A stretch of DNA of 17,994 nucleotides. Origin: Bacteroidales bacterium. GTDB taxonomy: Bacteria; Bacteroidota; Bacteroidia; Bacteroidales; SM23-62. Numbering within the stretch: the first letter of the stretch is position 1; every line of letters begins with the position of its first letter. The translations under genes and the position numbers were made by a program. Below the pieces are notes generated by a model. The model saw nothing but the letters and a program-made list of their open reading frames with translations. It was not told the DNA's origin and searched no databases. The stretch covers positions 1 through 17,994 of the forward strand of contig JADHVS010000082.1 of assembly GCA_016783865.1 (NCBI GenBank), in the 5' to 3' direction. Below, piece after piece: positions 1 to 17,994 of the stretch.

Positions 1-3
1 AGG

Positions 4-2594: not shown

Positions 2595-2629
2595 AACACC
2601 AGCTTTTAAGAATGTTTCTAAATAATTGG

Positions 2630-2813: not shown

Positions 2814-2825
2814 GAATTAAAAATC
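2814..2825 (+). promoter_or_regulatory. GAATTAAAAATC leader element, copy 1
   Basis: This exact 12-mer lies six bases before the ATG at 2832. Identical copies occur at 6010-6021 and 7411-7422, also just upstream of gene starts. Bacteroidota generally lack Shine-Dalgarno sites and favour A-rich leaders, so this may be a translation-enhancing leader. No function is established. Confidence 0.5.
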
Positions 2826-2831
2826 CGATCC

Positions 2832-3833: not shown

Positions 3834-3849
3834 AAATATTCCGCAGAAA

Positions 3850-4851
3850 ATGAATAAACAATTAAAAGCCGGCCTGATTGGATGCGGCGACTACCTTCGC
3901 TGGGAAATTGATAACCTGAACAACAGCAAGTACTTCAAGGTTAAGTATACTTTCGACATTGACAAAGTTAAAAGCCGGACAATTGCCGGGAAGATTGGTG
4001 CACAGCCCGCAGATAGTGATGATGTAATCTTTGATGATCCGAAAATTGACATTGTGATGATTTTTACTCCTCCATGGATACGAATTGATCTTTTTCAGAA
4101 AGCTGCAGATTCCGGGAAACATATTATTACCACCAAACCCCTGGCACCCAATGTAAAAGATGCCGAAAAACTTTTCAATATAGTTCATGGTAAAGTAAAC
4201 TGCGCAGTGTTTTACGGACGCACCGGGAATGCCAATGTGGAAAAGATCAGGCAAATCCTTGATAGCGGGGAGATAGGCAGTCTTGCGCTTTACAAAGAGG
4301 ACTGGTTTCATCACTATCCTACCTGGAATGATTGGGCCACAGACCCTGAAAAAAACGGAGGTCCGTTTATGGATGCAATGGTTCACAATCTGAATAAATC
4401 GATCTATCTGGCCGGTTCAGCAGTTAAATCGATCAACTATTTCTCCGACAATTTTGCACAATCCCTTATGTGTAATGACACTGAATTCATGAAGGTCAAC
4501 TTTGAAAACGGGGCAAGCTCATATCTGTTTATTACCTGGGCAGCCGACCTCGAAGTCTTTGATCCAACCGGGAACGACAGGGAACATTATGGAATACTTC
4601 ATATGATCACCGACCAGGGCTGGTATATAACTGAGGAAGAAACCGATACGGGAAATGTAATCCGGGCAAAAAAAGAGGCACAGGTGAAAGAATGGATAGT
4701 TGATCCATTACCCTATACTCCCTACGACGATGTATCGATCAGTATCCAGGAGGGCAAGCCTCAAAAGCATGATATTTCACTGGCATTGAATGATATCAAA
4801 CTATTGGAGATTGCCTCTGCCAATATATCTGAAGCGAAAGAAATTATTTAA
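3850..4851 (+). CDS. Gfo/Idh/MocA family oxidoreductase
   Basis: This is a 333-residue NAD(P)-dependent sugar or inositol-type dehydrogenase. Its N-terminal Rossmann domain opens with GLIGCGDYLR (8-17). The family EKP motif is represented by TKPLA (95-99), with the K96-P97 pair retained and glutamate replaced by threonine. The C-terminal alpha/beta domain contains GGPFMDAMVHNLNK (starting near 170), the usual place of the catalytic aspartate (D175) and histidine (H179). No signal peptide is visible, so it should be cytoplasmic. It follows the SDR gene by 16 bases and converges with a zinc dehydrogenase, so three oxidoreductases with related chemistry sit side by side. The substrate is unknown. 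Confidence 0.9.
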   Translation: MNKQLKAGLIGCGDYLRWEIDNLNNSKYFKVKYTFDIDKVKSRTIAGKIGAQPADSDDVIFDDPKIDIVMIFTPPWIRIDLFQKAADSGKHIITTKPLAPNVKDAEKLFNIVHGKVNCAVFYGRTGNANVEKIRQILDSGEIGSLALYKEDWFHHYPTWNDWATDPEKNGGPFMDAMVHNLNKSIYLAGSAVKSINYFSDNFAQSLMCNDTEFMKVNFENGASSYLFITWAADLEVFDPTGNDREHYGILHMITDQGWYITEEETDTGNVIRAKKEAQVKEWIVDPLPYTPYDDVSISIQEGKPQKHDISLALNDIKLLEIASANISEAKEII

Positions 4852-4885
4852 GACTAACCGGGCTGATTTATACCGATCATTTATG

Positions 4886-5929
4886 TCAGGGATTTAATAG
4901 GATTTTTATACAGTCTTCAAGCTTCTGGTCAAAAATCCGGTACGCGTTTTTACCCTCATCCAGTGACATTGTATGAGTAATGATCAGATCGAGCATCTTG
5001 CTCCACCCATGTAACCTTGGTATTACTTTATCCATATAATGCCTGGCAGAACACCGGCCTATTTTGTACGTGATGTTTTTATTATAGGCATCCACCGGAC
5101 TGAAAGAAAAATCAGCTGCAGTGTGAACACCGACGGTAGATATGATACCTCCCTGCCTTACGATCTGATATGCCAGCCTCTGTGCTCCGGGACTTCCAAC
5201 TGCCTCCATCACCGATTCAAATCCTATACCCTGTGTAATATCCTGCACCTTTTCCTGAATTACATCATCCAGTTTGATGGGTACAGCACCCATTTTCTCC
5301 GCAATTTTCAATCTGTATTCAACCGGATCTATTGCATACACCCGGTCGGCTCCCTGATCAAAAGCACTCAGGACAGCAAGCAAACCAACCGGTCCGCATC
5401 CCACAACCACATAAGGTTTCCCCTTCTGCACCTCAGCCATTTCAGCACAGAAATATCCTGTAGACAGAATATCTCCCGCAAGCAGTGCATGTCGTGGTTG
5501 AACATTTTCAGGAATTAACACCGCCGTGGAATCAGCCAGGGGTATCCTTACATATTCTGCCTGTGCTCCCTGCAATCCCTTTCCATTTTCCACCCAGCCA
5601 AATAACTGGCTTCTTTCACAACGGGCTGTTAACCCGGTCTTGCAGAAATAGCATTTCCCGCAACTGGTTGTAAACGGACTTACTACATGATCTCCCTTTT
5701 TAAATACCGTGACACCTGTGCCGGTTTCCACAACCTCACCGGTAAACTCATGTCCCATAACAGTCCCTTTATCTATGCCGGTTTCCCGTCCATGATAAAC
5801 ATGCATATCGGAACCGCAGATGGCAGTGCAGGTGGTTTTGACGATCAGGTCGCCCGGTTCGAGGATCTCGGGATCGGGTACATCAATACATTCTATTTCC
5901 CTGATATTTTGGAAGGTAATCGCTTTCAT
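4886..5929 (-). CDS. Zinc-dependent medium-chain alcohol/sorbitol-type dehydrogenase
   Basis: This 347-residue MDR enzyme oxidises a secondary alcohol, probably a polyol or sugar, with NAD(P). The catalytic zinc site is C38 (in ICGSD), H60-E61 (MGHEF) and D153 or a neighbour (GDILSTG). The structural zinc lobe has all four cysteines at 90, 93, 96 and 104. The cofactor motif GCGPVG is at 177-182. All key residues are present, so it should be active. It resembles the threonine/sorbitol dehydrogenase branch; the substrate is not readable. It is transcribed towards the Gfo/Idh gene with only 34 bases between the two stops and no evident bidirectional terminator there. Confidence 0.93.
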   Translation of the reverse strand: MKAITFQNIREIECIDVPDPEILEPGDLIVKTTCTAICGSDMHVYHGRETGIDKGTVMGHEFTGEVVETGTGVTVFKKGDHVVSPFTTSCGKCYFCKTGLTARCERSQLFGWVENGKGLQGAQAEYVRIPLADSTAVLIPENVQPRHALLAGDILSTGYFCAEMAEVQKGKPYVVVGCGPVGLLAVLSAFDQGADRVYAIDPVEYRLKIAEKMGAVPIKLDDVIQEKVQDITQGIGFESVMEAVGSPGAQRLAYQIVRQGGIISTVGVHTAADFSFSPVDAYNKNITYKIGRCSARHYMDKVIPRLHGWSKMLDLIITHTMSLDEGKNAYRIFDQKLEDCIKILLNP

Positions 5930-6009
5930 TCCGGCTAAAGATAATTTCCCTGAAGATAAAAATATTTAATGTTTCTAAGGGTGGACTTTTTCTTGTACCT
6001 TGGTTTTCT

Positions 6010-6021
6010 GAATTAAAAATC
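6010..6021 (+). promoter_or_regulatory. GAATTAAAAATC leader element, copy 2
   Basis: This is identical to the copies at 2814 and 7411. It sits two bases before the ATA codon at 6024 that opens a clear signal-peptide reading frame. Its position supports 6024 as the original start of the broken glycoside hydrolase gene. A TACCTTGG sequence just upstream (5996-6003) is a near match to a -7 box. Confidence 0.5.
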
Positions 6022-6023
6022 GC

Positions 6024-6541
6024 ATAAAAACCAGCATCATAAAATCCAGAATACTGATAATCAGCGTATTATCACTTTTTCTTTTTGCCTGCCAGTCTAC
6101 ACAAAAGCCAGAGTATACCGGGAATGAATACACCGGACTGAAAAAAAACCTTGCTTCCGGCTGGAAGGGATATGTATTGTTTTGCTGGGATAATTATTTT
6201 GTATCCTACATGTTCAGTATGGATAATAAGGAACTGACCTATGCCAATGCCATCGAGATCACTCATGAAATAACCGAATCGGGATTTGTCCCCAATTTTG
6301 CTGCAACCAATGATTTGAAGAGCAGGGACCGCTCACAGCCTCCGGTCGGATCAATGACGGTAAAGGAGATCTATAAAAAATATCCTGAAAAATGGTTTTT
6401 ACATGAAGTCTTCGATGATTTGCTTACATGGAACCGCTGGTGGCCGGAGAACAGGAATACGGATGGGTTGCATTGCTGGGGATAGTGAAGATGATTCAGG
6501 ATGGAGTACTGCCAAATCCTGAAGATCCGTTAACTAAATAG
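6024..6541 (+). pseudogene. Decayed MGH1-like glycoside hydrolase lipoprotein
   Basis: An open frame from the TGA at 6009-6011 encodes a classic lipoprotein signal ([14 protein letters not shown], then [10 protein letters not shown] with the lipobox at FAC), but its first codon at 6024 is ATA and no ATG, GTG or TTG precedes the signal. The frame continues NLASGWKGY, then directly [28 protein letters not shown] (ends VLFCWD to NAIE), RSQPPVGSM, and [13 protein letters not shown], which I recognise as the MGH1-like (alpha/alpha)6 glycosidase core. Full-length relatives are about three or more times longer, so sequence is missing inside. At 6483 the frame stops. A second frame read through 6455-6541 gives [20 protein letters not shown] and ends PLTK, which looks like the native C-terminus. 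A lost start, internal deletions and a frame change together indicate a dead gene. Confidence 0.75.
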
Positions 6542-6553
6542 AAGGTATCGTCC

Positions 6554-6569
6554 AAAAGTCGCCTGGCTT
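6554..6569. repeat. 16-bp direct repeat, left copy
   Basis: AAAAGTCGCCTGGCTT occurs here and again at 7257-7272, in the same orientation and 703 bases apart. The pair brackets the ORF6N-domain gene. Sequence outside the 16 bases differs between the copies. It begins 12 bases after the pseudogene's final stop codon. It may be a duplicated target or attachment site. Confidence 0.75.
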
Positions 6570-6648
6570 CGAGCTTGCAAGTTTTACTGGAAATATTCTT
6601 ATCCAATCCTCAGGGATTCAGGAGGGATTTGATCTGTAATTTGTGGGG

Positions 6649-7200
6649 CTATTGTTCGTTTTGTCTTTTGTAACCTATCCGTCTCCTATCACTTTGCTCT
6701 GATTCATGCAGCCTGGTCTCTTCCAACTGCCTGAGGTATTCAAAGATTAAGATAATCTTTTCATCCTGTTCAATGTCCTTTCTCTCTAACTCCTCAAGTT
6801 TCTTAAGTATCTCTTTGTGAGTTTCAAGCATTTCACGAATACGTGTAAATACACGCATGATCTGGATGTTTACCTTTATTGCCCTTTCACTGTTTAATAC
6901 TCCCGATAACATAGCTACTCCCTGCTCGGCAAAAGCATATGGAGGAGTTCGTCTTCCACCCCAACTTGCTATTCCAATCTGGAATATCAAGTGATCAAGC
7001 TCCTCTTGCTCAAGCCGGAACATAAAGTCCTGTGGAAAACGGGCAATGTTTCTCTTTACAGCCTTATTCAGGTTTCCGGTGGTAACTCCTTAAAGCTCAG
7101 CCAGATCTGCATCCAGCATTACTTTTTTATCTCTTATTAAATAGATCTTGCTTGTTATTATCTCATCCGGTATGTCTGGTTTTCCGGCAATTTCTTCCAT
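6649..7200 (-). pseudogene. ORF6N-domain protein gene with one nonsense codon
   Basis: From ATG at 7198-7200 the minus strand reads MEEIAGKPDIPDEIITSKIY, then LIRDKKVMLDADLAEL, a stop (TAA at 7090-7092, codon 37), then GVTTGNLNKAVKRNIARFPQ and DFMFRLEQEEL. This is the ORF6N domain, in which the stopped codon is normally the tyrosine of LYGV. The frame is otherwise unbroken for 183 codons, including AFAEQGVAMLSGVLNSERA, a coiled-coil stretch (about codons 98-145) and the common basic tail IGYKR. ORF6N is a DNA-associated domain found in phage and bacterial proteins, often repeated through Bacteroidota genomes; its cellular role is not settled. A downstream ATG at 7021-7023 could give a 124-residue C-terminal fragment, without the N-terminal part of the domain. 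A single point change suggests recent inactivation or a base-call error. Confidence 0.8.
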
Positions 7201-7256
7201 TTGTACTGTTTTTTGGTTGTTAATAAGTGTCTTTATTATTAATCCGTCTTAGCTAT

Positions 7257-7272
7257 AAAAGTCGCCTGGCTT
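7257..7272. repeat. 16-bp direct repeat, right copy
   Basis: Exact second copy of AAAAGTCGCCTGGCTT (first at 6554-6569), 56 bases upstream of the ORF6N start codon. The 7273-7410 stretch that follows has no convincing gene. Confidence 0.75.
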
Positions 7273-7410
7273 ATTCCTGAAAAATGACATCATTGCCTAA
7301 TTTGCACTTAGCTTAAATTAATACAGGAATAAATAAAAGCGTAATCGATGGCATGAGGTATAATATTTTGTTATCCTGATCGTATTATTCAGGTGAGATT
7401 ATATAATTTC

Positions 7411-7422
7411 GAATTAAAAATC
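7411..7422 (+). promoter_or_regulatory. GAATTAAAAATC leader element, copy 3
   Basis: This exact copy ends five bases before the TTG codon at 7428, almost the same spacing as copy 1 (six bases before ATG 2832). The spacing supports TTG 7428 as the start of the PD40 lipoprotein gene over ATG 7446. Confidence 0.5.
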
Positions 7423-7427
7423 AGGGA

Positions 7428-8486
7428 TTGAAATACTTAATTCCCATGATCAGACGCCGGGGTATCATTGTTTTTCTTTTACTCGTTATACTTATGACCG
7501 CCTGTCCATACTATGGTTATAAATACAATACTGGTGTGCTTCCAACATCCCCTGTTAACCTGGAAGACTTCAATACTCAATATGATGACTATAATTTATC
7601 GGCACCAACTATTAATCATCTGTTCACCCTTTTCTTCTCAACAAACAGGAACAGCGATGGCGAGAACTTTGATATAATTCATGAAGATTTTGAGATTGAG
7701 TTTGATAAGGATAATGCAGATCTGACAGCAGGTAAGATAATAAACAACTGGTGGGGCCTTCATGATCCGAGTGTATTGAACCAGATACTGGATACTATCA
7801 ATACGCCATATAATGAATTGGGACCCGTCGTTAGCTATCTGAATGAAGAGATGGATTCGTATCATTATAATGAAAATGACCAATATCTGGTACTCTGGGC
7901 AAGTGACCAATCAGGGGACCTGGATATTATGTTAACACATACCGATACTGACGATGATACAACGCTGCTATTCATTGAACCCGCTGAAATCCTATACCTG
8001 AATTCTGGCAGTGATGATGCCTATCCATCCATTGACTTCGATAATAAAATAATCTATTTCTGTTCTGACCGGGGTCTGGATTTCGATATTTATTCCTGTG
8101 AGTTACCGGCGCAAAGAGAGGTTCTGTATTCCCTGGAAAATCAGACTCTGGATGCCGATATCCTTAAGTGTGCTGTTTTGTCCTCACCATCCAACGACAA
8201 ATGCCCCAGCATTAGCAATAATGTTCTGGTATTTACATCTGACAGGCCAGGTGGTCAGGGCGGGTATGATCTATGGTATTCTGTAAGAGAAGGATCGGGC
8301 TGGTCTGAACCGGAAAACTTCGGAAAGCAAATCAATACGGAATATGACGAATACAGACCGATCCTTAAACATCTTAACGACTTCCAGCATGACCTGCTGA
8401 TGTTCTCCTCGAACCGCCCCGGCGGAAAGGGCGGGTTTGATCTGTACTTCGTAGGCGTGAAAAAACTAATTGAGTCTGATTACTAA
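7428..8486 (+). CDS. PD40 (WD40-like beta-propeller) lipoprotein
   Basis: The protein opens with a basic N-terminus, a hydrophobic run and the lipobox LMTAC (C26), so it should be a lipid-anchored envelope protein. Four PD40/WD40-like blades are visible: LVLWASDQSGDLDIM (near 153-168), IIYFCSDRGLDFDIYSC (208-224), LVFTSDRPGGQGGYDLWYS (267-285) and LMFSSNRPGGKGGFDLYFV (324-342). Blades of this type occur in TolB and in OmpA-linked and PorE-like proteins of Bacteroidota, where they bind proteins or peptidoglycan-associated partners. Here there is no OmpA domain and only the C-terminal two-thirds is clearly propeller, so it may be a partial propeller. The start is TTG 7428 (352 residues) or ATG 7446 (346); both keep the signal. 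The partner and function are unknown. Confidence 0.82.
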   Translation: MKYLIPMIRRRGIIVFLLLVILMTACPYYGYKYNTGVLPTSPVNLEDFNTQYDDYNLSAPTINHLFTLFFSTNRNSDGENFDIIHEDFEIEFDKDNADLTAGKIINNWWGLHDPSVLNQILDTINTPYNELGPVVSYLNEEMDSYHYNENDQYLVLWASDQSGDLDIMLTHTDTDDDTTLLFIEPAEILYLNSGSDDAYPSIDFDNKIIYFCSDRGLDFDIYSCELPAQREVLYSLENQTLDADILKCAVLSSPSNDKCPSISNNVLVFTSDRPGGQGGYDLWYSVREGSGWSEPENFGKQINTEYDEYRPILKHLNDFQHDLLMFSSNRPGGKGGFDLYFVGVKKLIESDY

Positions 8487-8513
8487 TTTGCAGGTTGGCT
8501 GGTTTATACAGAC

Positions 8514-8576
8514 CAGGTACGAGGTACGAGTCACTGGTAGAACTTGTAACTTGCAACTTGCAACTTGCAACATGTA
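8514..8576. repeat. Heptanucleotide-period repeat after the PD40 gene
   Basis: Nine consecutive 7-base units run in one phase: CAGGTAC, GAGGTAC, GAGTCAC, TGGTAGA and ACTTGTA, followed by three ACTTGCA and one ACATGTA. It begins 28 bases after the PD40 stop and occupies about half of the gap to the next gene. Same period as the hyp arrays but a different unit sequence. Confidence 0.8.
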
Positions 8577-8618
8577 ACTCTTTTTTAGTTATTTTTATTC
8601 AATCTTTTTCGCAATACA

Positions 8619-10580
8619 ATGAATATGAGAAAAACAGCAATCATATATCTTTTAGCAGTCTTACTGGGATTTATATTTTCCTGTAAGAAAGACGATGTTG
8701 GCCCAAACCTCATTGCCCACACCGGAAATGACACAACTGCCAGCATTGGCGATACCATATGGCTCGATGCCTCGGCAACATTTGGCTCAGATTACGAAAT
8801 CGAATGGTCCTTTTCGGTCTCACCCTCGGACGATTCAATAGCCTTTTCCATGTCTGATTCTGCTTATTTCATTCCAACAATGAATGGATCATATACACTT
8901 AGGCTCAGGGTAACCCGGGGAACCCAGTTCAGCGAGGACTTTATGTCGGTAACAGTTGAGGGAACTTTTACACTGTCGGGGCATATTACTGCCGATTCAA
9001 CCATTGTGGTCAAAAATCCCGGTGAAACAGATTATATCGTTACCTCAAATCTCTATATATCTGCCAGAGTGGTTATTGAGTCAGGAGTTAACATTGAATT
9101 CCTGGATAATACAGGGATCATCGTTGAAGAAACCGGTCAGCTGGTGGCCAATAGTGTCGATTTTACAGCAGCATTTAATGACTGGAAAGGCATCCATTTG
9201 AAGAGCCAGGGCAATGTTATTGCCAACTGTGTATTAGACCATGGTGGATATTCCTCCTATACAGGCGAGGTGAGTGAGAGTGCCTGCCTGACCCTTACAG
9301 GAACCGCCAGAGCAACTGTTTCAGGAAACCTTTTTAAGAACAGCAACGGTTATGGTGTGGTTGTCAAAGATCAGGCTGTTTTTGAATTTGATGAGCCAAG
9401 TTATACCAACGCATTCTGGAACAATAATTTTGCATCCAATGGAATCGGTTCCATCAAGGCACCTGTGAATATACTCGCAAGCATGTCCAGCCCCGATTTC
9501 TCAGAGGAATCTGAAAATGCCCATATAATGTTGTATGAATCATCCTATGGCTCCACCGAAACAGTTGCACCCATCCTCACTAATTATGGCATTCCCTATC
9601 ATATTTCCGGAACAGTTACCTTCAATAAAACCCTGACTATTTTACCTGGAACTGAAGTATACCTGACCTACCAGGGAGGGATTATCGTGAATGGGGATCT
9701 GAACATAAACGGATCGTCTGCCTCACCGGTGATTATTGACGGGCTTGCAGGTACAGCCGGATCATGGACCGGGATTTATGTGAAAAATGGTAATACATTG
9801 ATCACCTACACTGATATAATGAATGGCGGTTACAAGGTATTGCAGGGACTTGAAGAAGCAGCCAACCTTACTATTGAAGGCAATCTGAACATGCAAAATT
9901 CTAAAGTATCCGGATCTATTGGGATGGGTATTCACCTGAAAGACGATGCAGTTATACAGTATACCAGCAATTTTTCTGGTAATACTCTTGAAGACAATGC
10001 TGTATCTGCCATCCGGCTGGGTATTGACGATGTGCACAAAGTAGTCTCTGATAACAGCATTTCTGTTCCCACCTCAACAACGCCTGCCATTGAAGTAAGG
10101 AATGGCCAGAATGACCTTACAGGAACATGGACAAACCTCAGTGCGGACATTGACTACCTGATCGTTGAATCCATCATCCTGAAAGGAACCCGGTCGATCA
10201 CCATTGAATCCGGAGCGGTATTACAATTCGCATCCGGGACTGCTTTCCAGGTAAACGGAGCCCTGACGGCATCTTCGGTTGTTTTCGAAGGATCAGAAAA
10301 TACAGCAGGCCACTGGGATGGGATATACATCGCCACCGACAATGCAGTATCCTTATCCAATGTTACTATTACTGACGGAGGCGGAGGAACTGTAGACCAG
10401 GCCAATGTGATCATCCAGCCAGCCGCTAAAAGTATAACTATAACCAACTCATCAATCACAAACAGTGCAGGTTACGGAGTCCTGATCAAATTGGGAGCTT
10501 CAGATTTCGGGATTAATGAAGGGGGTTCGGGTAACACACTGGGTGGTTCACTTGGCGATTTCCTTAATGAGAATAATTAA
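8619..10580 (+). CDS. PKD-like/right-handed beta-helix lipoprotein
   Basis: This is a 653-residue surface or periplasmic lipoprotein: the signal MNMRKTAIIYLLAVLLGFIF is followed by SCKKDD, the standard Bacteroidota lipid-anchor motif. Residues about 30-115 form a PKD/Ig-like fold (GDTIWLDASATFG, then YTLRLRVTRG). The rest is a parallel beta-helix made of three modules starting near 120, 325 and 505. Each module begins with a SGTV or LIVES-type strand, has an IESGV, ILPGT or IESGA turn, and then a WKGIHL, WTGIYV or WDGIYI strand followed by a DHGG, NGG or DGG turn. Beta-helices of this kind bind or process polysaccharide, but no catalytic motif is apparent. Start ATG 8619 is used; ATG 8625 is equally possible. 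It lies between two other envelope genes on the same strand. Confidence 0.85.
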   Translation: MNMRKTAIIYLLAVLLGFIFSCKKDDVGPNLIAHTGNDTTASIGDTIWLDASATFGSDYEIEWSFSVSPSDDSIAFSMSDSAYFIPTMNGSYTLRLRVTRGTQFSEDFMSVTVEGTFTLSGHITADSTIVVKNPGETDYIVTSNLYISARVVIESGVNIEFLDNTGIIVEETGQLVANSVDFTAAFNDWKGIHLKSQGNVIANCVLDHGGYSSYTGEVSESACLTLTGTARATVSGNLFKNSNGYGVVVKDQAVFEFDEPSYTNAFWNNNFASNGIGSIKAPVNILASMSSPDFSEESENAHIMLYESSYGSTETVAPILTNYGIPYHISGTVTFNKTLTILPGTEVYLTYQGGIIVNGDLNINGSSASPVIIDGLAGTAGSWTGIYVKNGNTLITYTDIMNGGYKVLQGLEEAANLTIEGNLNMQNSKVSGSIGMGIHLKDDAVIQYTSNFSGNTLEDNAVSAIRLGIDDVHKVVSDNSISVPTSTTPAIEVRNGQNDLTGTWTNLSADIDYLIVESIILKGTRSITIESGAVLQFASGTAFQVNGALTASSVVFEGSENTAGHWDGIYIATDNAVSLSNVTITDGGGGTVDQANVIIQPAAKSITITNSSITNSAGYGVLIKLGASDFGINEGGSGNTLGGSLGDFLNENN

Positions 10581-10586
10581 TCTTTG
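10579..10586 (+). promoter_or_regulatory. Possible -7 box upstream of the DoxX fusion gene
   Basis: AATCTTTG (followed by C) matches five of six fixed positions of TAnnTTTG and overlaps the stop of the preceding gene. A TTG at 10552-10554 could be a loosely spaced -33 element. Weak evidence. Confidence 0.25.
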
Positions 10587-10636
10587 CATCGCTTTAAGGG
10601 AAAATATATATTTAACCATCACAAATTATTACCAGG

Positions 10637-12229
10637 ATGAAAGCGACTGCAAGATCTGTAGATGTATCCAAGGTGGGTATCTATTTTATGGTAGCACTCA
10701 GGATACTTATCGGCTGGCACTTCCTGTATGAAGGCCTGATCAAACTTGGAGATCCTACATGGACAGCAGCAGGCTACCTTGAACAATCTAGATATATCTT
10801 ACCAGGATTATTTCACTGGATGGCTGATTCGCAAGGTATGCTGGCTTTCATTGATTTTGCTAATATCTGGGGACAAATTTTCATAGGACTGGGCCTGATG
10901 CTGGGTTTATTTACGCGCATCGCAGCCATTGGTGGTGCCGTTTTACTCGGGATGTATTTCCTGGCCAATCCACCGTTTATCACAAATGCCTATAGTTCAA
11001 GTCTGGAGGGACACTACCTGTTCATCGATAAGAACCTCATCGAATGCATTGCCATGATAGCTGTGGCATTACTCCCAACGGGTCATTATCTGGGATTGGA
11101 CAAACTGCTTTCCAGTTTCATATACCGGAAGAAATCGCCAAGAAAAATTGTGACCCCTGAGGAGATTGAAAAAAGCCAACAGGAACCGGAACCTGTTGCC
11201 GGACCTTTACTTCCACGGCGTGAAATCCTGAAACACCTGGCTACTTTGCCCGTTTTGGGTGCCTTCGGTCTTGCATACCTGAAGAAGAGGAAATGGGAAA
11301 GTATGGAGGAGCAAAACCTCGTGGATATAATGTCAGGTGCGAGTGTTGTGAGAATGGATTTCCCGGAAATCGATGAGTTGAAAGGAGAATTGCCTTTTGG
11401 GATGATCAGGGACAAACAGGTCAGTAAGGTAATTTTAGGCGGAAACCTGTTGAATGGTTATGCTCATTCCCGCGACCTGATTTATGTCTCTCACCTGATC
11501 AGGGCATATCATACGAAAGAACGAATTTTCAGGACCCTCTCCATTGCTGAAAAATGTGGAGTGAATACTCTGTTAACAGATCCGGTCATCGCGAAGCTTA
11601 TCAATGAATACTGGGACCGGAAACTTGGTAAGATCCAATTCATGTCTGATTGTGTTGGTCTGGATTATAGCCAGGGGGTCAGAGCAAAACCCTTCCAGGA
11701 GTGGCTCGATTTCATACAGCAAGCCATTGACCACGGAGCCACAGCCTGCTACATCCAGGGGGAAACGGCCGACTTCTATTTTCAGCAGGAAGACGGACCC
11801 GACAAAATAGCCAAAGCACTTCAACTGATAGAAGATGCCGGTCTGCCTGCAGGTATTGGAGCGCATAACATTGAAACCATCAAAAAAGCTGCTGATCTTG
11901 GATTTGATCCTGACTTCTGGATGAAAACAATTCACCACCAGCAATACTGGTCAGCTCAGCATCCTACCTGGCATGATAACAAATTCTGTTTCAACACCGA
12001 AGAAACAATTGCTTTCATGAACGACCTGCCTCAGCCATGGATCGGATTTAAGATCCTCGCCGCAGGTGCGATCCATCCTGAGGAAGGATTCCGTTTTGCC
12101 TTTGAAGGTGGGGCAGATTTCATATGTGTTGGCATGTATGACTTCCAGATGGTTCAGGATGTTAACATCGCGCTCGATTGCCTTAATGATCCTGCCATCC
12201 GGAACAGGAAACGGCCCTGGAGGGCATAA
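10637..12229 (+). CDS. DoxX-type membrane domain fused to a TIM-barrel-like domain
   Basis: Residues 13-160 are a four-helix DoxX/DoxD-like membrane domain: VALRILIGWHFLYEGLIKL (19-37), a second helix in IFIGLGLMLGLF (81-92), AAIGGAVLLGMYFLANPPF (96-114) and IECIAMIAVALLP (135-147). A charged linker (163-192, with QQEPEPVAGP) leads to PRREILKHLATLPVLGAFG (193-211), which looks like a twin-arginine signal or fifth membrane helix. Residues 225-530 are soluble and read as an (alpha/beta)8 barrel related to aldo-keto reductase or xylose-isomerase-like proteins (KVILGGNLLNGYAHSRD, GETADFYF, PAGIGAHN, GFKILAAGAIHPEEG, GGADFICVGMYDFQ). DoxX domains are tied to quinone or redox chemistry, so the protein may couple an envelope enzyme to the membrane. 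The reaction is unknown. A terminator follows at 12314. Confidence 0.8.
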   Translation: MKATARSVDVSKVGIYFMVALRILIGWHFLYEGLIKLGDPTWTAAGYLEQSRYILPGLFHWMADSQGMLAFIDFANIWGQIFIGLGLMLGLFTRIAAIGGAVLLGMYFLANPPFITNAYSSSLEGHYLFIDKNLIECIAMIAVALLPTGHYLGLDKLLSSFIYRKKSPRKIVTPEEIEKSQQEPEPVAGPLLPRREILKHLATLPVLGAFGLAYLKKRKWESMEEQNLVDIMSGASVVRMDFPEIDELKGELPFGMIRDKQVSKVILGGNLLNGYAHSRDLIYVSHLIRAYHTKERIFRTLSIAEKCGVNTLLTDPVIAKLINEYWDRKLGKIQFMSDCVGLDYSQGVRAKPFQEWLDFIQQAIDHGATACYIQGETADFYFQQEDGPDKIAKALQLIEDAGLPAGIGAHNIETIKKAADLGFDPDFWMKTIHHQQYWSAQHPTWHDNKFCFNTEETIAFMNDLPQPWIGFKILAAGAIHPEEGFRFAFEGGADFICVGMYDFQMVQDVNIALDCLNDPAIRNRKRPWRA

Positions 12230-12233
12230 TTGA

Positions 12234-12275
12234 AGAGTCCGCAGTCCACAGTCTACAGTCCGCAAGTCGGTAGTC
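12234..12275. repeat. Heptanucleotide-period repeat after the DoxX fusion gene
   Basis: Starting four bases after the stop codon, 7-base units follow one another: AGAGTCC, GCAGTCC, ACAGTCT and ACAGTCC, then the phase-shifted GCAAGTC and GGTAGTC. The shared core is AGTC every seven bases. Confidence 0.72.
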
Positions 12276-12313
12276 TCCAGAAACTTTTATCTTAAGTTAA
12301 CAGTATTATTAAG

Positions 12314-12339
12314 CTGCTCTCCCTGGGCAGTTTTTTTTT
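12314..12339 (+). terminator. Intrinsic terminator of the DoxX fusion gene
   Basis: Stem CTGCTC (12314-12319) pairs with GGGCAG (12325-12330) around loop TCCCT, with one G-T wobble, and is followed directly by nine T residues (12331-12339). It separates the DoxX gene from the BlaI operon promoter, which begins nine bases later. Confidence 0.8.
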
Positions 12340-12347
12340 GCATTTTA

Positions 12348-12379
12348 TTTGGATTTTAAATATCCATCTACTATATTTG
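12348..12379 (+). promoter_or_regulatory. Bacteroidota promoter of the blaI operon
   Basis: The -33 element TTTG (12348-12351) and an exact -7 element TATATTTG (12372-12379, consensus TAnnTTTG) are separated by 20 bases, within the usual range. The blaI start is 44 bases downstream of the -7 box. The -7 box lies wholly inside the BlaI-type operator, so repressor binding should block initiation. Confidence 0.75.
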
Positions 12380-12387
12380 TAGTAGAT
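12366..12387. promoter_or_regulatory. BlaI/MecI-type operator
   Basis: A perfect inverted repeat has arms ATCTACTA (12366-12373) and TAGTAGAT (12380-12387) around TATTTG. Its centre reads TATATTTGTA, one base off the BlaI/MecI core TACAnnTGTA, and it has the flanking TACTA and TAGTA half-sites seen in staphylococcal operators. It overlaps the -7 element and lies 36 bases before blaI, as expected for autorepression released when the M56 protease triggers BlaI cleavage. Confidence 0.85.
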
Positions 12388-12423
12388 AATTAAATCTTAT
12401 AGTACATATTTCAACTTTACTTA

Positions 12424-12798
12424 ATGAAGGAACTTACGAAAGCACAGGAAGAGATCCTGAGGGTTCTCTGGGAAATTGAAGATGGCGCGGTAACGGATGT
12501 TATAGATCAGCTGCCCGATCCCAGGCCTGCTTACAACACCGTAGCAACTGTACTTAAAGTATTGGAAAAGAAAGGCTATGTATCCCATAAAGTATATAGC
12601 AAAACCTATGTTTATTTTCCGATCGTCTCAAAAAAAGACTATGCACAATTCCTGTTAAAAGATACCATGAAAGGCCTTTTTAATAATTCTGTAAAACAAG
12701 CCGTTTCATTCTTCGTTAAGCAAAAGAAGGTAAGCCTGAATGAACTTGAGGAATTGAAGCAAATGATTGAAAATGAAATTCAAAAACAGAAAAAATGA
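12424..12798 (+). CDS. BlaI/MecI/CopY family transcriptional repressor
   Basis: This 124-residue winged-helix repressor starts LTKAQEEILRVLWEIEDGAV (residues 4-23) and continues with the recognition region PRPAYNTVATVLKVLEKKGY (33-52) and the wing SHKVYSKTYVYFPIVS, the signature of the BlaI/MecI DNA-binding domain. The remainder (about 70-124) is the helical dimerisation and cleavage region, rich in lysine and glutamate at the end. It binds DNA as a dimer and is inactivated by proteolysis induced by the partner M56 protease. Its stop overlaps the start of that partner by four bases (ATGA), so the two are translationally coupled. A matching operator lies in its own promoter. The link to beta-lactams is not implied, because many Bacteroidota BlaI/M56 pairs sense other signals. 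Confidence 0.93.
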   Translation: MKELTKAQEEILRVLWEIEDGAVTDVIDQLPDPRPAYNTVATVLKVLEKKGYVSHKVYSKTYVYFPIVSKKDYAQFLLKDTMKGLFNNSVKQAVSFFVKQKKVSLNELEELKQMIENEIQKQKK

Positions 12799-14402
12799 AT
12801 ATATCCCTGATCCTGGCATACATTGTTGTATCATCGGTCTGCATAAGCTTATTTTACCTGTTTTACAGGCTGTTACTTCAAAAAGATACTGATTTCAGGG
12901 CTGTCCGTATTTATTTGATAGCCAGTATAATTATATCGTTTATTTTGCCCTCTGTTAACATGCAGGTCAACCTGGATCTGCCTTCGCTGGGTACATCAGA
13001 ATATTTCGCCTGGCAACATGATAAAATCGATGGATCGGAGGCAGGTAATACGGAAGCTTCTCCTGTTATAACAAATCCTTCTGAATCACAATCATCCGGA
13101 CCTGTAAGGGGAAACGCTGAAATAATCGCCCCGCCCGTTAACCTGCCCGCTGTGCCATCTTCCGGTGAAAACATTCCCTGGTCAGGAATTGTATTATTGG
13201 TTTACCTGTTAGGTTTTGCCTTCCTTATGGTCAGGCTGCTGAAACAATTTACAGTCATCAGCGTCTGCTATTTCAGATCAGAAAAAGAAAAGAGCCAATC
13301 ATTCATCATCATCCGGAATACTTCGTTTGACCATCCCTTCTCATTCTTCAACTGGATCTTTATTCCGGCTAAGATTACACCGGACAATGAAATGAGTGAC
13401 ATCATCCAGCATGAAAAGATCCATGCCAGGCAATGGCATTCAGCCGACATGCTGCTCACCGAGGCGCTGACTGCAATCATGTGGTTTAATCCCCTCATCT
13501 GGATGATGAGAGATTCTGTCCAGCTCGTCCATGAGTACCTGGCCGATGAGGGCGCACTGAACAAGGGACTGGATAAGGTTTTTTACCAGGCCCTGCTGGT
13601 TAACCAGGTAGCCGAAGGCAGACTGATCCCGCTTTCTTCCCGTTTCAATCAATCATTAATTAAAAAACGCATAACCATGATGAGCAAAACAAAGTCAAAT
13701 CAAATGTCGAAACTTAAATTATTAGGAGTATTACCGATCATCGCACTCCTGGTGCTTGGGATCGCCTGTGCAAAAACACAGGAAAAACAAGTACTGAGTG
13801 AAGTGAATGGTGAAATGACCAATGATGATGTCATAACAGCTATTGTCCCGATAAAAATGAACGTATTGTACATTGGAGTCGAGAATCCCGTCGCTGTGGC
13901 CGTTTCAGGTTATAAATCCGAAGAACTGGAAGTGAGGCTCAACAACGGAAGGATTGAAGGCCAGGCCGGTGAATATGTAGTAATGCCAGCACGCACCGGT
14001 GAAGCGGAAATTACAGTCTCGAAAGATGGCAGGGATGTCGGAAGCATTACATTCAGGGTGAAACCTATCCCTGATCCCGTAGCACGCGTCGGAGAAATGA
14101 GAAGTGGATCAATCTCGAAAAGTGACCTGCTGGAGGCCGGTGGTATAAATGCTTATATGGCTATTGACTTCGATATACAATTCAAAGTGGTATCCTTTGT
14201 GATGAGTGCCACCGTTCCTATGTCTGGCGCAATGGCCATCAGGGAAGAAATTTCCAAATCAGATAAGTATTCTGAGTTGCAGATTGATCTTATCAATTCA
14301 CTTATCACTAACCAGAAATTGATGGTTGAAGAGATCAAGGCCATTGGTCCCGACGGGGCCATCCGGGACCTTGGCCCCATGGTTTTTACTATCTCTGAGT
14401 AA
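12795..14402 (+). CDS. M56 (BlaR1-type) metallopeptidase sensor with GldM C-terminal domain
   Basis: A 535-residue integral membrane sensor-protease. Membrane helices are at about 4-26, 37-53, 129-150 and 308-324. The M56 zinc site is HEKIH (206-210), with E247 in VHEYLADEGAL, 41 residues after the first histidine as in BlaR1, so the protease should be active. Residues 353-535 are not a penicillin-binding or TonB domain but match the last two domains of GldM: MNVLYIGVENPVAVAVSG (355-372), AGEYVVMPARTGEAEITVS (391-409), FRVKPIPDPVARVG (420-433), then SISKSDLLEAGG, FKVVSFVMS and IKAIGPDGAIRDLGPMVF. GldM is the periplasm-spanning rod of the type IX secretion motor. A lipobox-like LGIAC (C325) follows the last helix. 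The gene is coupled to blaI and ended by a terminator at 14445. Confidence 0.88.
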   Translation: MNISLILAYIVVSSVCISLFYLFYRLLLQKDTDFRAVRIYLIASIIISFILPSVNMQVNLDLPSLGTSEYFAWQHDKIDGSEAGNTEASPVITNPSESQSSGPVRGNAEIIAPPVNLPAVPSSGENIPWSGIVLLVYLLGFAFLMVRLLKQFTVISVCYFRSEKEKSQSFIIIRNTSFDHPFSFFNWIFIPAKITPDNEMSDIIQHEKIHARQWHSADMLLTEALTAIMWFNPLIWMMRDSVQLVHEYLADEGALNKGLDKVFYQALLVNQVAEGRLIPLSSRFNQSLIKKRITMMSKTKSNQMSKLKLLGVLPIIALLVLGIACAKTQEKQVLSEVNGEMTNDDVITAIVPIKMNVLYIGVENPVAVAVSGYKSEELEVRLNNGRIEGQAGEYVVMPARTGEAEITVSKDGRDVGSITFRVKPIPDPVARVGEMRSGSISKSDLLEAGGINAYMAIDFDIQFKVVSFVMSATVPMSGAMAIREEISKSDKYSELQIDLINSLITNQKLMVEEIKAIGPDGAIRDLGPMVFTISE

Positions 14403-14444
14403 AATTACTCGTCCCGAAAATAAAAACTTTCTTTCCAATTATTT

Positions 14445-14477
14445 CCGCAGAGAGCAATGAGTACTCTGCGGATTTTT
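14445..14477 (+). terminator. Intrinsic terminator of the blaI operon
   Basis: Perfect 8-bp stem CCGCAGAG (14445-14452) and CTCTGCGG (14464-14471) with an 11-base loop, followed by A and five T residues. It lies 43 bases after the M56 gene stop. Confidence 0.9.
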
Positions 14478-14505
14478 CTAATTTTAAAGAAGTTTATAAG
14501 AATCA

Positions 14506-14591
14506 TAGTAACTAGTTGCTAGGTATATGATTCATAGCATAAAAAGTAGTGGTTGTCTAATACCCAGTAACCAGTAACTAGCACCTTGCAA
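14506..14591. repeat. Heptanucleotide-period repeats before the ChbG-like gene
   Basis: Two short runs lie in the gap: TAGTAAC, TAGTTGC and TAGGTAT at 14506-14526, and two CCAGTAA units followed by CTAGCAC and CTTGCAA at 14564-14591. The intervening 37 bases are irregular. The period is seven as in the other gaps, and CTTGCAA is a rotation of the ACTTGCA-like units at 8549. Confidence 0.65.
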
Positions 14592-14610
14592 CTTTTTTAA
14601 TATACAAATT

Positions 14611-15465
14611 ATGAAAAAACTCACCCTTCTTCCGATTTTGCTTATTTTTTTCGTTGCTACCACCTCTTCCCAAAACGAATCCATCCGGCTGATCGTCCGG
14701 GGGGATGATATCGGTTCAACCCATGCTGCCAACCTGGGTTGTATACGCTCATACGTAGATGGCATTATGACCACCGTTGAAGTCATGGTACCCTGTCCCT
14801 GGTTTCCCGAAGCGGTAAAAATGCTGAATGAAAATCCCGGGCTGGATGTGGGGATCCACATTACAGTAACCTCTGAATGGGAAAACTATAAATGGAGACC
14901 ATTAACCCACTCTCCCAGTATTACCGACGAAGACGGGTACTTTTTCCCCATGATATGGGCCAATGATGAATTCCCGCCGGAGAGGGCCTTACGCGAACAG
15001 GATTGGAAGATCGGGGAAATTGAACAGGAAATGCGTGCCCAGATTGAAATGGCCATGAAACACATCCCCCATGTCTCACACCTCTCCTGCCACATGGGCT
15101 GCGCGAACTGGGATGACCAGGTTCAGGAAGTCTTTAACAAACTGGCTGAAGAATATAACCTGGTTGTTGACCGGAGCATTGCGGGAATAGAACGGTTTCC
15201 AATTGAAGGCAAGGGAGAAACCCTCGAGGAGAGAATTACTCTTTTCGTGGACGCCCTGAACAAACTGGAAAATGGCAAAACCTACCTGTTTGTGGAACAT
15301 CCGGCGCTGGACACCCCGGAAATGGAGGCTATCGGCCACAGTGGGTATATGGGTGTGGGTGCCGACCGGTACCTGGTTACAAAAGTATTCACCAGTGAAA
15401 AGGTCAGGGATATGATCAATGAACGCAACATCAAGCTTATCCCTTACAAGGACCTGGTAAAATAG
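14611..15465 (+). CDS. Secreted ChbG/YdjC-family carbohydrate deacetylase
   Basis: A 284-residue protein with an N-terminal signal peptide (MKKLTLLPILLIFFVATTSS, probable cleavage before QNES), so it should be periplasmic or exported. The fold is that of the ChbG/YdjC deacetylases, which remove an acetyl group from N-acetylated di- or oligosaccharides with a divalent metal. Metal and catalytic residues are visible in RGDDIG (D32, D33), VGIHIT (H83) and LSCHMGC (H161). Family members are usually cytoplasmic and about 250-300 residues, so the signal peptide marks an exported Bacteroidota subgroup. A GH28-like gene starts 43 bases after its stop, so both are probably one transcription unit for degrading an acetylated polysaccharide. 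The substrate cannot be assigned. Confidence 0.88.
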   Translation: MKKLTLLPILLIFFVATTSSQNESIRLIVRGDDIGSTHAANLGCIRSYVDGIMTTVEVMVPCPWFPEAVKMLNENPGLDVGIHITVTSEWENYKWRPLTHSPSITDEDGYFFPMIWANDEFPPERALREQDWKIGEIEQEMRAQIEMAMKHIPHVSHLSCHMGCANWDDQVQEVFNKLAEEYNLVVDRSIAGIERFPIEGKGETLEERITLFVDALNKLENGKTYLFVEHPALDTPEMEAIGHSGYMGVGADRYLVTKVFTSEKVRDMINERNIKLIPYKDLVK

Positions 15466-15508
15466 ATCAGTACCTCAGTAAACTCATCATCCAATAATAC
15501 TTTCCGCA

Positions 15509-17047
15509 ATGAATCATCATCCGGTCTTCTTCATCATTCTGTTGTTATTCACTTCCTGTACATCCAATATCAATTTGCACTATAACATACTCGATTATGG
15601 AGCAAAACCGGATGGACAAACATTGAACTCCGCTGCTATCCAGGGCGCCATCGATGACTGCCATGCGAAGGGAGGTGGAACTGTATTTATCCCGGCCGGC
15701 AACTTTATTACCGGAGCTTTAGCCTTAAAGGACAACGTAAACCTTCACGTATCTGCCGGTGCAAAACTCATCGGAAGCCTTGACACTGCCGATTACCGGA
15801 TGGATGGCATGAGACATGGCATGATCTGGGCATACCAGGCAAAAAATATTTCTATTACTGGTGAAGGTGAAATTGATGGAAGGGGCACCGATTTTCATAT
15901 CCCGGGAAGGGCCCATTCCGGGGGAGATTTCGACAGGCAGTACACCCGCCAGAGAGACCAATATTTTCCTGATGACAAGGTTCCTGATGACGGTCCGATA
16001 GAATACGAAGCAAGACCGGGAATGATGATCGTCATATTGCAATGTGAGGAGGTGCTATTGAAAGATATTAAGCTGAAAGATTCCCCTGTATGGACCGTTC
16101 GTATCGGGGATTGTGACGATGTCAATATTACTGGTATCGCCATTTACAATAATCTCCTGGTCCCTAACAGTGATGGAATACACTGCACCACTTCAAGAAA
16201 TGTCAGGATCTCGGATTGTGATATCAGGGCGGGTGATGATGCCATTATTGTTACAGGATTTGATACCCACGAAGGGGTGAGCAGAAATCTTATTTCAGAG
16301 CCTGATTATACCAAAAGAAAAGTAGGGAATAAAACGGGTTACGCTGAAAATATTGTGGTAACTAATTGCATATTGCAATCCCGTTCCAGCGGGATCCGGG
16401 TGGGTTATGGCATGAACAATATAAGGAACTGTGTCTTCAGTAACCTGGTCATATATGGATCGAACCGGGGAATTGGTGTTTTCGCGCGGGATGAGGGTTC
16501 AATTGAAAATATACTATTCTCCGATATTGTGATTGTGACCCGCTTGCATTCGGGTCACTGGTGGGGAAATGGGGAGCCCATCCATGTTTCGGCTATTGCA
16601 CAGAGTGAGGGCATCGTTTTGGGGCAAATATCGAATGTCAGGTTCAGGAATATCATTGCGAAAAGCGAAACAGGCATACTTGTATATGGCGTGGAGGAGA
16701 GTCCCATTACAAATCTTGTGTTCGACCAGGTTCAGCTGACAATCTCCGACAGTCCCCTGGCGGATAGTTATGGTGGCAATTTTGACCTGCGCCCGGCCTT
16801 TTCCATGGAAAAATCGATTTTTAAAAGCGATATCCCTGGTCTCTTTGCGGGACATGTTAACAGCCTGACTATCAAAGATTTTACTCTGATCTGGAGCGAG
16901 TCTCCGGCTTCATGGTTCACGTATGGCATTTATTGCACCAATTACCAGGATGTGTTGGTGGAAAGATTCACCGGGACCCATGCGCATCCGGAATCAGGGT
17001 TACCTTCTCTCATGTTTGAAAACGGTACAAACAAAGTGATCAGATAA
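15509..17047 (+). CDS. GH28-like (polygalacturonase family) lipoprotein
   Basis: A 512-residue right-handed beta-helix protein. The signal ends LLLFTSCTSN, a lipobox with C17. The family opening ILDYGAKPDGQTLNSAAIQG (27-46) and GGGTVFIPAGNFITGAL (55-71) is clear. The GH28 acid residues are present in NSDGIHC (N220, D222) and AGDDAI (D243, D244). However, the motif usually read GHG is SSGIRVGY (293-300) with no histidine, and the usual RIK is replaced in NRGIGVFARDEG (319-330). It may have a different specificity or altered mechanism rather than ordinary polygalacturonase activity. It follows the ChbG-like gene and precedes the stub of a Tat-signal gene, all on the plus strand, as in a carbohydrate-utilisation cluster. 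No SusC/SusD pair is in the window. Confidence 0.85.
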   Translation: MNHHPVFFIILLLFTSCTSNINLHYNILDYGAKPDGQTLNSAAIQGAIDDCHAKGGGTVFIPAGNFITGALALKDNVNLHVSAGAKLIGSLDTADYRMDGMRHGMIWAYQAKNISITGEGEIDGRGTDFHIPGRAHSGGDFDRQYTRQRDQYFPDDKVPDDGPIEYEARPGMMIVILQCEEVLLKDIKLKDSPVWTVRIGDCDDVNITGIAIYNNLLVPNSDGIHCTTSRNVRISDCDIRAGDDAIIVTGFDTHEGVSRNLISEPDYTKRKVGNKTGYAENIVVTNCILQSRSSGIRVGYGMNNIRNCVFSNLVIYGSNRGIGVFARDEGSIENILFSDIVIVTRLHSGHWWGNGEPIHVSAIAQSEGIVLGQISNVRFRNIIAKSETGILVYGVEESPITNLVFDQVQLTISDSPLADSYGGNFDLRPAFSMEKSIFKSDIPGLFAGHVNSLTIKDFTLIWSESPASWFTYGIYCTNYQDVLVERFTGTHAHPESGLPSLMFENGTNKVIR

Positions 17048-17052
17048 AATAT

Positions 17053-17100
17053 ATGAAACGGCGACCCTTCCTTAAAACACTGGCCGCTGGTATTTCATGA
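17053..17100 (+). pseudogene. Stub of a Tat-exported protein gene
   Basis: ATG five bases after the GH28 stop opens MKRRPFLKTLAAGIS and then TGA. The twin-arginine motif RRPFLK and the start of the hydrophobic stretch are typical of Tat signal peptides in Bacteroidota oxidoreductases and glycosidases. Nothing recognisable follows in any frame before the hairpin at 17177, so the rest of the gene appears deleted. A functional 15-residue peptide is less likely. Confidence 0.65.
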
Positions 17101-17176
17101 TGCCATATTCAATACCCGGTTTGCCGGAAGGTTTGAAGTTTATCGGGAAAAGTTTTCACAGGTAATCTGTTTGATT

Positions 17177-17221
17177 GGTCATGTTGAATTGTCTGCCAAT
17201 GGCATCCTATTCAGCATGACC
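17177..17221. repeat. Large imperfect hairpin between GH28 and Mut7-C genes
   Basis: Arms GGTCATGTTGAAT (17177-17189) and ATTCAGCATGACC (17209-17221) pair at 12 of 13 positions, with the remaining T-G pair allowed in RNA. Inside lies a second short stem, TGCC (17194-17197) with GGCA (17201-17204), around AAT. No T-run follows, so it is not a standard terminator. It could be a REP-like palindrome or the scar of a lost element. Confidence 0.7.
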
Positions 17222-17240
17222 GGATTCAATATTATTTATT

Positions 17241-17994
17241 ATGAAATCTGTTACCCTTAGATTTTATGAAGAACTGAACGATTTTCTTCCGGGCGGCAAA
17301 AAGAAACACCTCTTTAGTGTTGCATACAAAGGGAGACAAACCGTTAAGGACATCATTGAATCACAGGGAGTTCCGCATATTGAAGTCGACCTGGTGCTGG
17401 TCAATGGAAAACATGTTGATTTTGGTTACCTGGTGCAGCATGAGGATAAAATTTCTGTCTATCCTGTTTTTGAATCCTTCAATATTTCATCTGTCAGTAA
17501 GCTCCGCAATAAACCGCTGAGGAAAACTGCCTTTATCCTTGATGTCCATTTGGGCAGGTTAAAGAATTATCTCAGGCTGCTTGGATTCGACACACTGTAT
17601 AAAAATGACTACGAGGATGCGGAGATAGTGGAAATCTCAAATGCCGAACACAGGATCATCCTGACCCGTGATGTGGGAATACTGAAAAGGAATGAGGTTA
17701 GACTTGGGTATTGGATCAGGAATATTTATCCCAGGCAACAAACAAATGAAGTTGTCGAACGGTTCGATCTTTACAACCAGATCGAGCCTTTTAAAAGGTG
17801 CTCAGAATGTAATGGAGTGATTGAACAAGTTTCCCGGGAAAGCATAATCGACAGGTTGCAGCCTGGAACACGTAAATATTATAATGAATTCTTTCGCTGC
17901 ACCGGCTGTGAAAAAATTTACTGGAAAGGGAGTCATTATACGAAATTAAATGATTTTATTTCGGAAATCCTTTCTCATCAACACGAAAAGAAAG
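17241..17994 (+). CDS. Mut7-C RNase-domain protein with ubiquitin-like N-terminus (incomplete at window end)
   Basis: An open frame of 251 codons from ATG 17241 has no stop before the window ends. Residues 1-80 (KSVTLRFYEELNDFLPGGKK, then LVLVNGKHVDFGYLVQHEDK and ISVYPVFE) form the ubiquitin/MoaD-like domain found before Mut7-C domains. Residues 95-240 are the Mut7-C PIN-like RNase domain: FILDVHLGRLKNYLRLLGFD with D101, ILTRDVGILKR with D144, and a zinc ribbon with C187, C190, C220 and C223. It is predicted to be a cytoplasmic nuclease; the RNA target is unknown in bacteria. All expected metal-site acids and the four cysteines are present, and most of the protein is probably visible, since these proteins are about 250 residues long. 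Confidence 0.9.
   Translation, partial: MKSVTLRFYEELNDFLPGGKKKHLFSVAYKGRQTVKDIIESQGVPHIEVDLVLVNGKHVDFGYLVQHEDKISVYPVFESFNISSVSKLRNKPLRKTAFILDVHLGRLKNYLRLLGFDTLYKNDYEDAEIVEISNAEHRIILTRDVGILKRNEVRLGYWIRNIYPRQQTNEVVERFDLYNQIEPFKRCSECNGVIEQVSRESIIDRLQPGTRKYYNEFFRCTGCEKIYWKGSHYTKLNDFISEILSHQHEKK

Follow-up and report, generated by a model that had tools for sequence, protein, structure and literature searches.

What does a BlaI-controlled sensor protease respond to when it carries the tip of a secretion motor arm in place of a penicillin-binding domain? This question is raised by a stretch of 17,994 nucleotides from a Bacteroidales bacterium (GenBank assembly GCA_016783865.1, contig JADHVS010000082.1, positions 1 to 17,994 of the forward strand), here called the window. 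A two-gene unit of 2.1 kb in this window consists of blaI and, overlapping it by 4 bases (ATGA), a gene for a protease of the M56 family that ends in D3 and D4, the last two domains of GldM (Table 1). GldM, or PorM, is the arm of the motor of the type IX secretion system (T9SS). The M56-GldM arrangement is a genuine variant of the BlaR1/BlaI relay that has been conserved, and its link to type IX secretion is plausible.

The domains of the sensor protease have been assigned using Pfam, which places Peptidase_M56 at residues 168-295 (whole-protein E 1.6e-11), GldM_3rd (PF21602) at 350-423 (E 7e-16) and GldM_4th (PF12080) at 426-533 (E 4e-12), the two GldM domains both scoring over their cut-offs. 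Four transmembrane (TM) helices are indicated by hydropathy at about residues 5-23, 36-54, 131-149 and 307-325, and the protease motifs HEKIH and EYLAD are found at residues 206-210 and 247-251. No penicillin-binding sensor domain was matched in this protein by Pfam at E<=0.1, and the NCBIfam model blaR1_generic gives 25.8 bits against a cut-off of 400, which sets the protein apart from the beta-lactam sensors (BlaR1 proper). The NCBIfam model GldM_gliding (TIGR03517) matches residues 348-526 (E 5e-24) with 84.9 bits against a 180-bit cut-off, as expected for a protein that holds half a GldM; the N-terminal part of GldM and D1-D2 gave no match (PF12081, PF21601). In the Protein Data Bank (PDB), residues 345-526 match PorM (6ey5) with E 8e-18 for the single sequence and 1e-41 for the family profile. 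The protease part matches BlaR1 (8exp) with a profile E of 5.8e-12 (profile 3-299 to chain 3-324), and the single-sequence match to 8exp is weak (E 0.003 for the whole protein, 0.011-0.016 for the protease part). The original prediction, which likened the sensor region to the last two GldM domains and not to a penicillin-binding domain, has been borne out, and an unrelated fold for the C-terminal region is unlikely given the profile matches to solved PorM.

The likeness to GldM is also seen at individual positions. In a comparison of 93 main-clade fusions with 51 GldM proteins (11 fusions of a second set were left out of the main clade), the fusions share the majority residue in 41 of the 43 columns conserved in GldM at 80%, and the D3-D4 of the window is identical to GldM in 36 of them. 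The mean identity of the fusion D3-D4 to GldM is 38%, compared with 45% among GldM proteins, and the asparagine-proline pair N364-P365, an RVK.P.P hinge and GPDG are conserved in the fusions. Judged by sequence, the sensor, predicted to be periplasmic, is a genuine GldM tip.

The catalytic residues of the relay are conserved as well. The zinc site of BlaR1 is formed by H201ExxH and E242xxxD, according to the available part of PMC9834060, and the zinc-site residues of the fusion match both; H206, E207, H210, E247 and D251 are invariant in all 59 aligned fusion proteins. Phe284 of the window protein aligns with the autocleavage Phe284 of BlaR1 and is kept in 56 of the 59, and His215, aligned to Asp210 of BlaR1, is invariant (59/59). 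In the repressor, alignment to staphylococcal BlaI (1sd4) pairs the scissile bond Asn101-Phe102 with Phe96-Phe97 of the window, placing Phe97 at the P1' position of Phe102, and this residue is kept in 13 of 13 BlaI proteins of fusion operons. These BlaI proteins, the window itself set aside, are 64-73% identical, and blaI is located directly upstream of the fusion gene in all 13 testable loci, a count that leaves out the second fusion copy of G001 (L136), which starts at a contig edge. Because the catalytic motifs, the autocleavage Phe and the scissile Phe of BlaI are conserved, a relay in which the M56 protease cuts BlaI is well supported and very probable.

The promoter was called using the consensus TTTG / TAnnTTTG, which we take to be that of Bacteroidota. 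The palindrome O1 contains the -7 box of this promoter, a layout that lends itself directly to repression. The 16-base core of O1 has a single site in the window at up to 2 mismatches (0.03 expected). Operator-like boxes were found 5' of 12 of 12 testable fusion operons, the best box fitting 12-16 of 16 bases (L177, with no usable upstream sequence, is not counted), and in a shuffle test of 11 operons (without L178) no more than 2.7% of 300 dinucleotide shuffles equalled the box of any one operon. Inspection of upstream sequences by eye revealed a TAGTA-like half-site 3' of O1 in most relatives, which runs into TTTG in many of them but not in the window. With a Penicillinase_R domain and a palindromic operator, the latter predicted, at its own promoter, the repressor is a member of the BlaI/MecI family. 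The 51-nt terminator stretch has a folding energy of -17.2 kcal/mol (z -4.9); a sigma-70 and terminator scan with E. coli-type hexamers and loops of <=8 reported neither this promoter nor this terminator. The promoter, operator, blaI, overlapping M56 gene with HEKIH and terminator of the original prediction are all present, as judged by sequence, Pfam and folding. A further terminator-like hairpin with a T-run (12311-12339), just 5' of the operon promoter, probably ends the preceding gene.

Table 1. Features of the blaI/M56-GldM operon (positions in the window)
Feature	Position	Strand	Details and basis
Bacteroidota-type promoter (presumed)	12348..12379	+	TTTG 12348-12351, 20-nt spacer, TATATTTG 12372-12379; sequence read, spacer measured
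Predicted BlaI operator O1	12366..12387	.	palindrome ATCTACTATATTTGTAGTAGAT = ATCTACTA-TATTTG-TAGTAGAT; perfect 8-nt arms
Second half-site, possible O2	12398..12413	.	TATAGTACATATTTCA; putative function
blaI, BlaI/MecI repressor, 124 aa	12424..12798	+	PF03965 (Penicillinase_R), E 2.6e-29
M56-GldM sensor protease, 535 aa	12795..14402	+	Pfam, PDB matches, hydropathy
TM4, residues 307-325, ending in lipobox-like GIAC; Cys325 last residue	13713..13769	+	hydropathy; family alignment
Predicted periplasmic sensor, GldM D3-D4, residues 350-533	13842..14393	+	Pfam; PorM 6ey5 match
Intrinsic terminator	14444..14480	+	hairpin 14444-14472, 9-bp outer stem, then TTTTTCT

The M56-GldM arrangement is conserved but rare. 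All three Pfam domains are present in 101 of the best 120 of 1226 homologues, and the fusion proteins are 33-69% identical to the window protein. Of 395 genomes across the phylum, the full fusion turned up in one, that on which the search was centred; in three families it was found in 1 of 7, 1 of 28 and 2 of 244 genomes, such centre genomes included. In one order, 13 genomes of 393 met the E limit, of which 4 end before the GldM part and 9 hold the full fusion, one of them (G800) matching only to position 390 of 500. Since few candidates were scored per genome (3-6 in the larger searches, <=3 in the phylum sample), these counts are lower bounds. Among plasmid records, 6 hold an M56 relative and none covers 80% of the query. 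No shared neighbour gene was noticed across 12 loci, close pairs apart, which share an outer-membrane receptor-like protein (L003, L192) or a chondroitinase-B-like protein (L135, L002), and because the neighbours vary between loci, the operon looks self-contained. Some databases name such proteins 'GldM family protein', and no description of the fusion was found among the papers listed in searches of the open-licence PubMed Central (PMC) literature.

A tree of D3-D4 was built from 175 rows, that is, 185 minus 10 (three fragments, long-branch or truncated rows) that were also left out of the column-conservation count and of the linker and cysteine counts given below, and 92 of 103 fusions are found in one block. 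A single clade of 42 sampled fusions is not rejected by the approximately unbiased test (p-AU 0.67); for this test, 12 fragment, long-branch or truncated rows had been dropped, and the main-clade fusions had been thinned by two in every three. Yet a free quick tree splits the fusions: the main set needs 4 label changes, of which starred branches force at least 3, and 4 are likewise needed for the Cys-less set, at least 2 of them forced, so that one origin of the fusions is only possible.

With confidence just short of even, we favour a self-contained, autoregulated relay of the BlaI/BlaR1 type with the GldM tip as input. BlaI dimers on the palindrome over the -7 box would keep the two-gene operon low. 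The four-helix M56 zinc protease would have its active site in the cytoplasm and D3-D4 in the periplasm, where D3-D4 would dock on the partner of the motor arm, a PorN/GldN-type protein, either free or in the ring. Docking would report whether the partner is available, assembled or moving, in a signal direction that we infer. A change in docking would shift the helices and free the active site from the protease's own autocleavage loop, and the freed protease would cut BlaI, presumably on the N-terminal side of Phe97, and so relieve repression of the operon and of weaker targets, if there are any.

That D3-D4 has a T9SS-type partner is, in our judgement, nearly an even call. PorM D4 alone binds PorN by two-hybrid, as given in the accessible part of PMC5790014, and hence the D3-D4 sensor could bind PorN/GldN; in the excerpt available from PMC12635249, an AlphaFold 3 (AF3) model has the D4 tip in a cleft between PorN copies. 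In the five fusion genomes examined, GldM, GldN and SprA are never all missing: GldM apart from the fusion is above cut-off in 4 of 5, GldN is present in 4 of 5, SprA in 4 of 5, and all three in 3 of 5 (G002, G004 and G570). In the phylum sample, by comparison, 95 genomes of 395 hold GldN. The contrast with the fusion genomes has a Fisher p of 0.014, the centre genome being set aside, and rests on five fusion genomes, two from one family, with kinship uncorrected and completeness unstated. Fusion genomes devoid of any T9SS component, which the original prediction would have counted against itself had they been common, were not seen among these (n = 5).

Several results weigh against this preferred relay. 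GldN was not found in G003, which outside the fusion holds only a weak GldM-like protein below the cut-off, and SprA was not found in G001; these absences are uncertain, as the completeness of the genomes is unstated. Among the 95 GldN-positive genomes, the fusion was found only in the centre genome (<=3 candidates scored each). According to the same excerpt of PMC12635249, the surface that D4 turns towards PorN shows no substantial conservation and the AF3 model is of weak confidence, so that conservation cannot serve as a check on the D4-PorN contact. The fusions with a cysteine at the end of TM4 have a linker of ~14 residues (median), and D3-D4 may therefore not reach the outer-membrane ring. 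The proposed sensing of the type IX or gliding machinery has support in part: the fusion exists, is conserved and has blaI beside it at all testable loci, and binding of PorN by PorM D4 has been published. The gaps in G003 and G001 speak against it.

The output of the relay that can be seen so far is narrower than had been proposed. A search for the strict operator in the five fusion genomes yielded 3 sites, all at the fusion operon (three genomes), and with one mismatch 27 sites were obtained, 5 of them at fusion operons, compared with 73 in a reversed control. Of the 22 one-mismatch sites elsewhere, 12 were viewed by eye: one adjoins another BlaI-M56 pair in G004, and the remaining ones revealed no pattern. 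With no trans sites and no excess of near-matches, the effect on gene expression does not, for now, go beyond control of the operon itself. By sequence, the components needed to cut BlaI are all in place.

D3-D4 has also been observed outside motor proteins. In G004 (L137:2881-5955), an nSTAND1 ATPase is followed by a TM helix (by eye), GldM D3, a stretch resembling D4 and a tail of ~300 residues that has no Pfam match. Of the two GldM domains, Pfam passes GldM_3rd alone, while the fusion profile spans both. A search with the GldM part of this ATPase listed one protein, an ordinary GldM, and no second STAND-GldM example. In G003 (L138:7432-11291, minus strand), genes for an extracytoplasmic function (ECF) sigma factor, FecR, a CarboxypepD_reg-like protein and a D3-D4-ending protein with an apparent signal peptide are found together. 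Stand-alone D3-D4 proteins are secreted, lipoprotein-like or single-TM (signals by eye), one of them named Calditrichaeota, and P0142, P0147 and P0151-P0154 have apparent lipoprotein signal peptides (by eye). D3 occurs in tandem in P0029. The majority residue is kept in 39 of the 43 GldM-conserved columns across 19 stand-alone proteins. This distribution suggests that D3-D4 is a module repeatedly fitted to signalling devices, which weakens a strict T9SS reading.

The end of TM4 is a further conserved feature of the fusions, with A or S preceding the Cys position in all 59 aligned family members and the Cys itself present in 53 of them. The lipobox rule of PROSITE is a pattern and not a trained predictor. 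Lipobox-like ends were counted in 92 of 112 GldM-type and 17 of 72 other M56 proteins (near-copies not removed). In non-GldM M56 proteins (e.g. L106, L107, L113, L121 and L125), TM4 also ends in a lipobox-like motif such as GCEP, so that this kind of ending is not confined to the GldM fusions. The linker to D3 has <=45 residues in 82 of 83 fusions with Cys and is long in 13 of 15 without (raw counts for Cys/short, Cys/long, none/short and none/long: 82, 1, 2 and 13), and its mean Pro fraction is 12% in Cys-less and 3% in Cys-type fusions. The correlation of linker and lipobox is strong in raw counts; after correction for kinship, 4 contrasts are left, of which ~3 agree and none is opposed, and it is not significant, as significance is unreachable with only 4 independent contrasts.

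Since D3-D4 is found by itself and joined to a STAND ATPase, it may serve more generally as an envelope module of Bacteroidota that binds a non-T9SS outer-membrane or periplasmic protein, with the relay working as in BlaR1. This explanation is possible, if somewhat doubtful, and is favoured by D3-D4 standing alone, on the nSTAND1 ATPase, beside ECF sigma/FecR and with tandem D3, by the presence of the fusion in G003, where GldN was not found, and by related M56 proteins that bear other C-terminal domains, namely PF07715 (Plug) in P0116 and PF01520, presumably Amidase_3, in P0109. The fusions retain almost every GldM-conserved position, which would not be required of a module put to a new use, but this argument is weak because the stand-alone proteins keep most of them too; the presence of at least one T9SS component in each of the five fusion genomes also speaks against it. 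Alternatively, TM4 could be an internal lipoprotein signal, with a signal peptidase II cut before Cys325, acylation, and transfer of D3-D4 to the outer membrane, its release being a turnover or signalling step. We regard this as unlikely. It would account for the A/S-Cys at the end of TM4, for its being commoner in GldM-type M56 proteins, for the short linkers with Cys and mostly long, Pro-richer linkers without it, and for the apparent stand-alone D3-D4 lipoproteins; the fusions are related, though, and the four contrasts cannot reach significance. Niastella soli has Phe at the Cys position yet a short linker, and position -3 of a lipobox is most often filled by a residue other than Gly. Cys325 could instead form a membrane-edge disulfide in a dimer.

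Staphylococcal BlaR1 is cut near the same place, at Gly331 just after the last helix, by signal peptidase I (SpsB), as described in the available part of PMC9834060, and signal peptidase II processing would be the Gram-negative counterpart of this step. A Cys with a short linker and no Cys with a long linker may be two solutions that bring D3-D4 near the outer membrane. A combined explanation, in which the relay reads the T9SS or gliding motor via the tip of the arm and, by an internal lipobox at the end of TM4, releases the tip as an outer-membrane lipoprotein, D3-D4 being a general T9SS adaptor, is quite improbable; if true, STAND ATPases and ECF-sigma loci would be further devices fitted with this adaptor. 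That the gene is an inactive remnant or a chance fusion would fit its sporadic distribution (at least 1 of 395 genomes of the phylum, at least 9 of 393 of one order) and the lack of target sites beyond the operon in the five fusion genomes, but open frames, invariant catalytic residues and an operator conserved across proteins of 33-69% identity make it most improbable, and a single clade of fusions was not rejected.

If D3-D4 does bind GldN/PorN, the preferred relay would sense the machine directly and signal by proteolysis, which would make it a natural reporter of T9SS assembly. An input would also be assigned to one BlaI/M56 pair of Bacteroidota; for such pairs, no description of a signal was recognised among the papers listed in searches of the open-licence PMC literature. 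To our knowledge, neither a part of a secretion machine serving as sensor nor the cutting of an internal helix in a signalling protease by signal peptidase II would have a precedent. A known regulator of T9SS genes is PorXY-SigP, according to the available part of PMC7712824.

Other features were noted in the window. On the minus strand, three genes at 4-2594 resemble the hydrogenase maturation genes hypE, hypD and hypC (by eye), and at 6649-7023 a possible remnant of an ORF6N-domain gene is found, the match being confined to the second half of the domain (44-86 of 86). In a 530-aa protein (10637-12229), an N-terminal DoxX domain (about 18-104) is accompanied by ~420 residues that Pfam does not match, and a Mut7-C RNase with an N-terminal ubiquitin-like (Ub-Mut7C) domain (17241-17993) is cut by the window end.

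Compared with known systems, the operon is closest in its layout to BlaR1/BlaI and MecR1/MecI of staphylococci, with which it shares the two-gene repressor and sensor-protease organisation, four TM helices and the HExxH...ExxxD gluzincin site, and with BlaR1/BlaI also the autocleavage-loop Phe284, the scissile Phe in BlaI and an operator over the promoter. It differs from BlaR1 in having GldM D3-D4 in place of the penicillin-binding sensor, His215 where BlaR1 has Asp210, and a lipobox-like Cys at the end of TM4, and no resistance gene was noticed near the fusion operons at 12 loci. With GldM/PorM it shares D3 and D4, whereas D1, D2 and the N-terminal part are missing, the tip is joined to a protease, and the gene does not lie in a gldKLMN cluster in the window. 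Other M56 proteins of Bacteroidota have the same protease part, at most 43% identical over ~60% of the window protein, and carry a different periplasmic tail.

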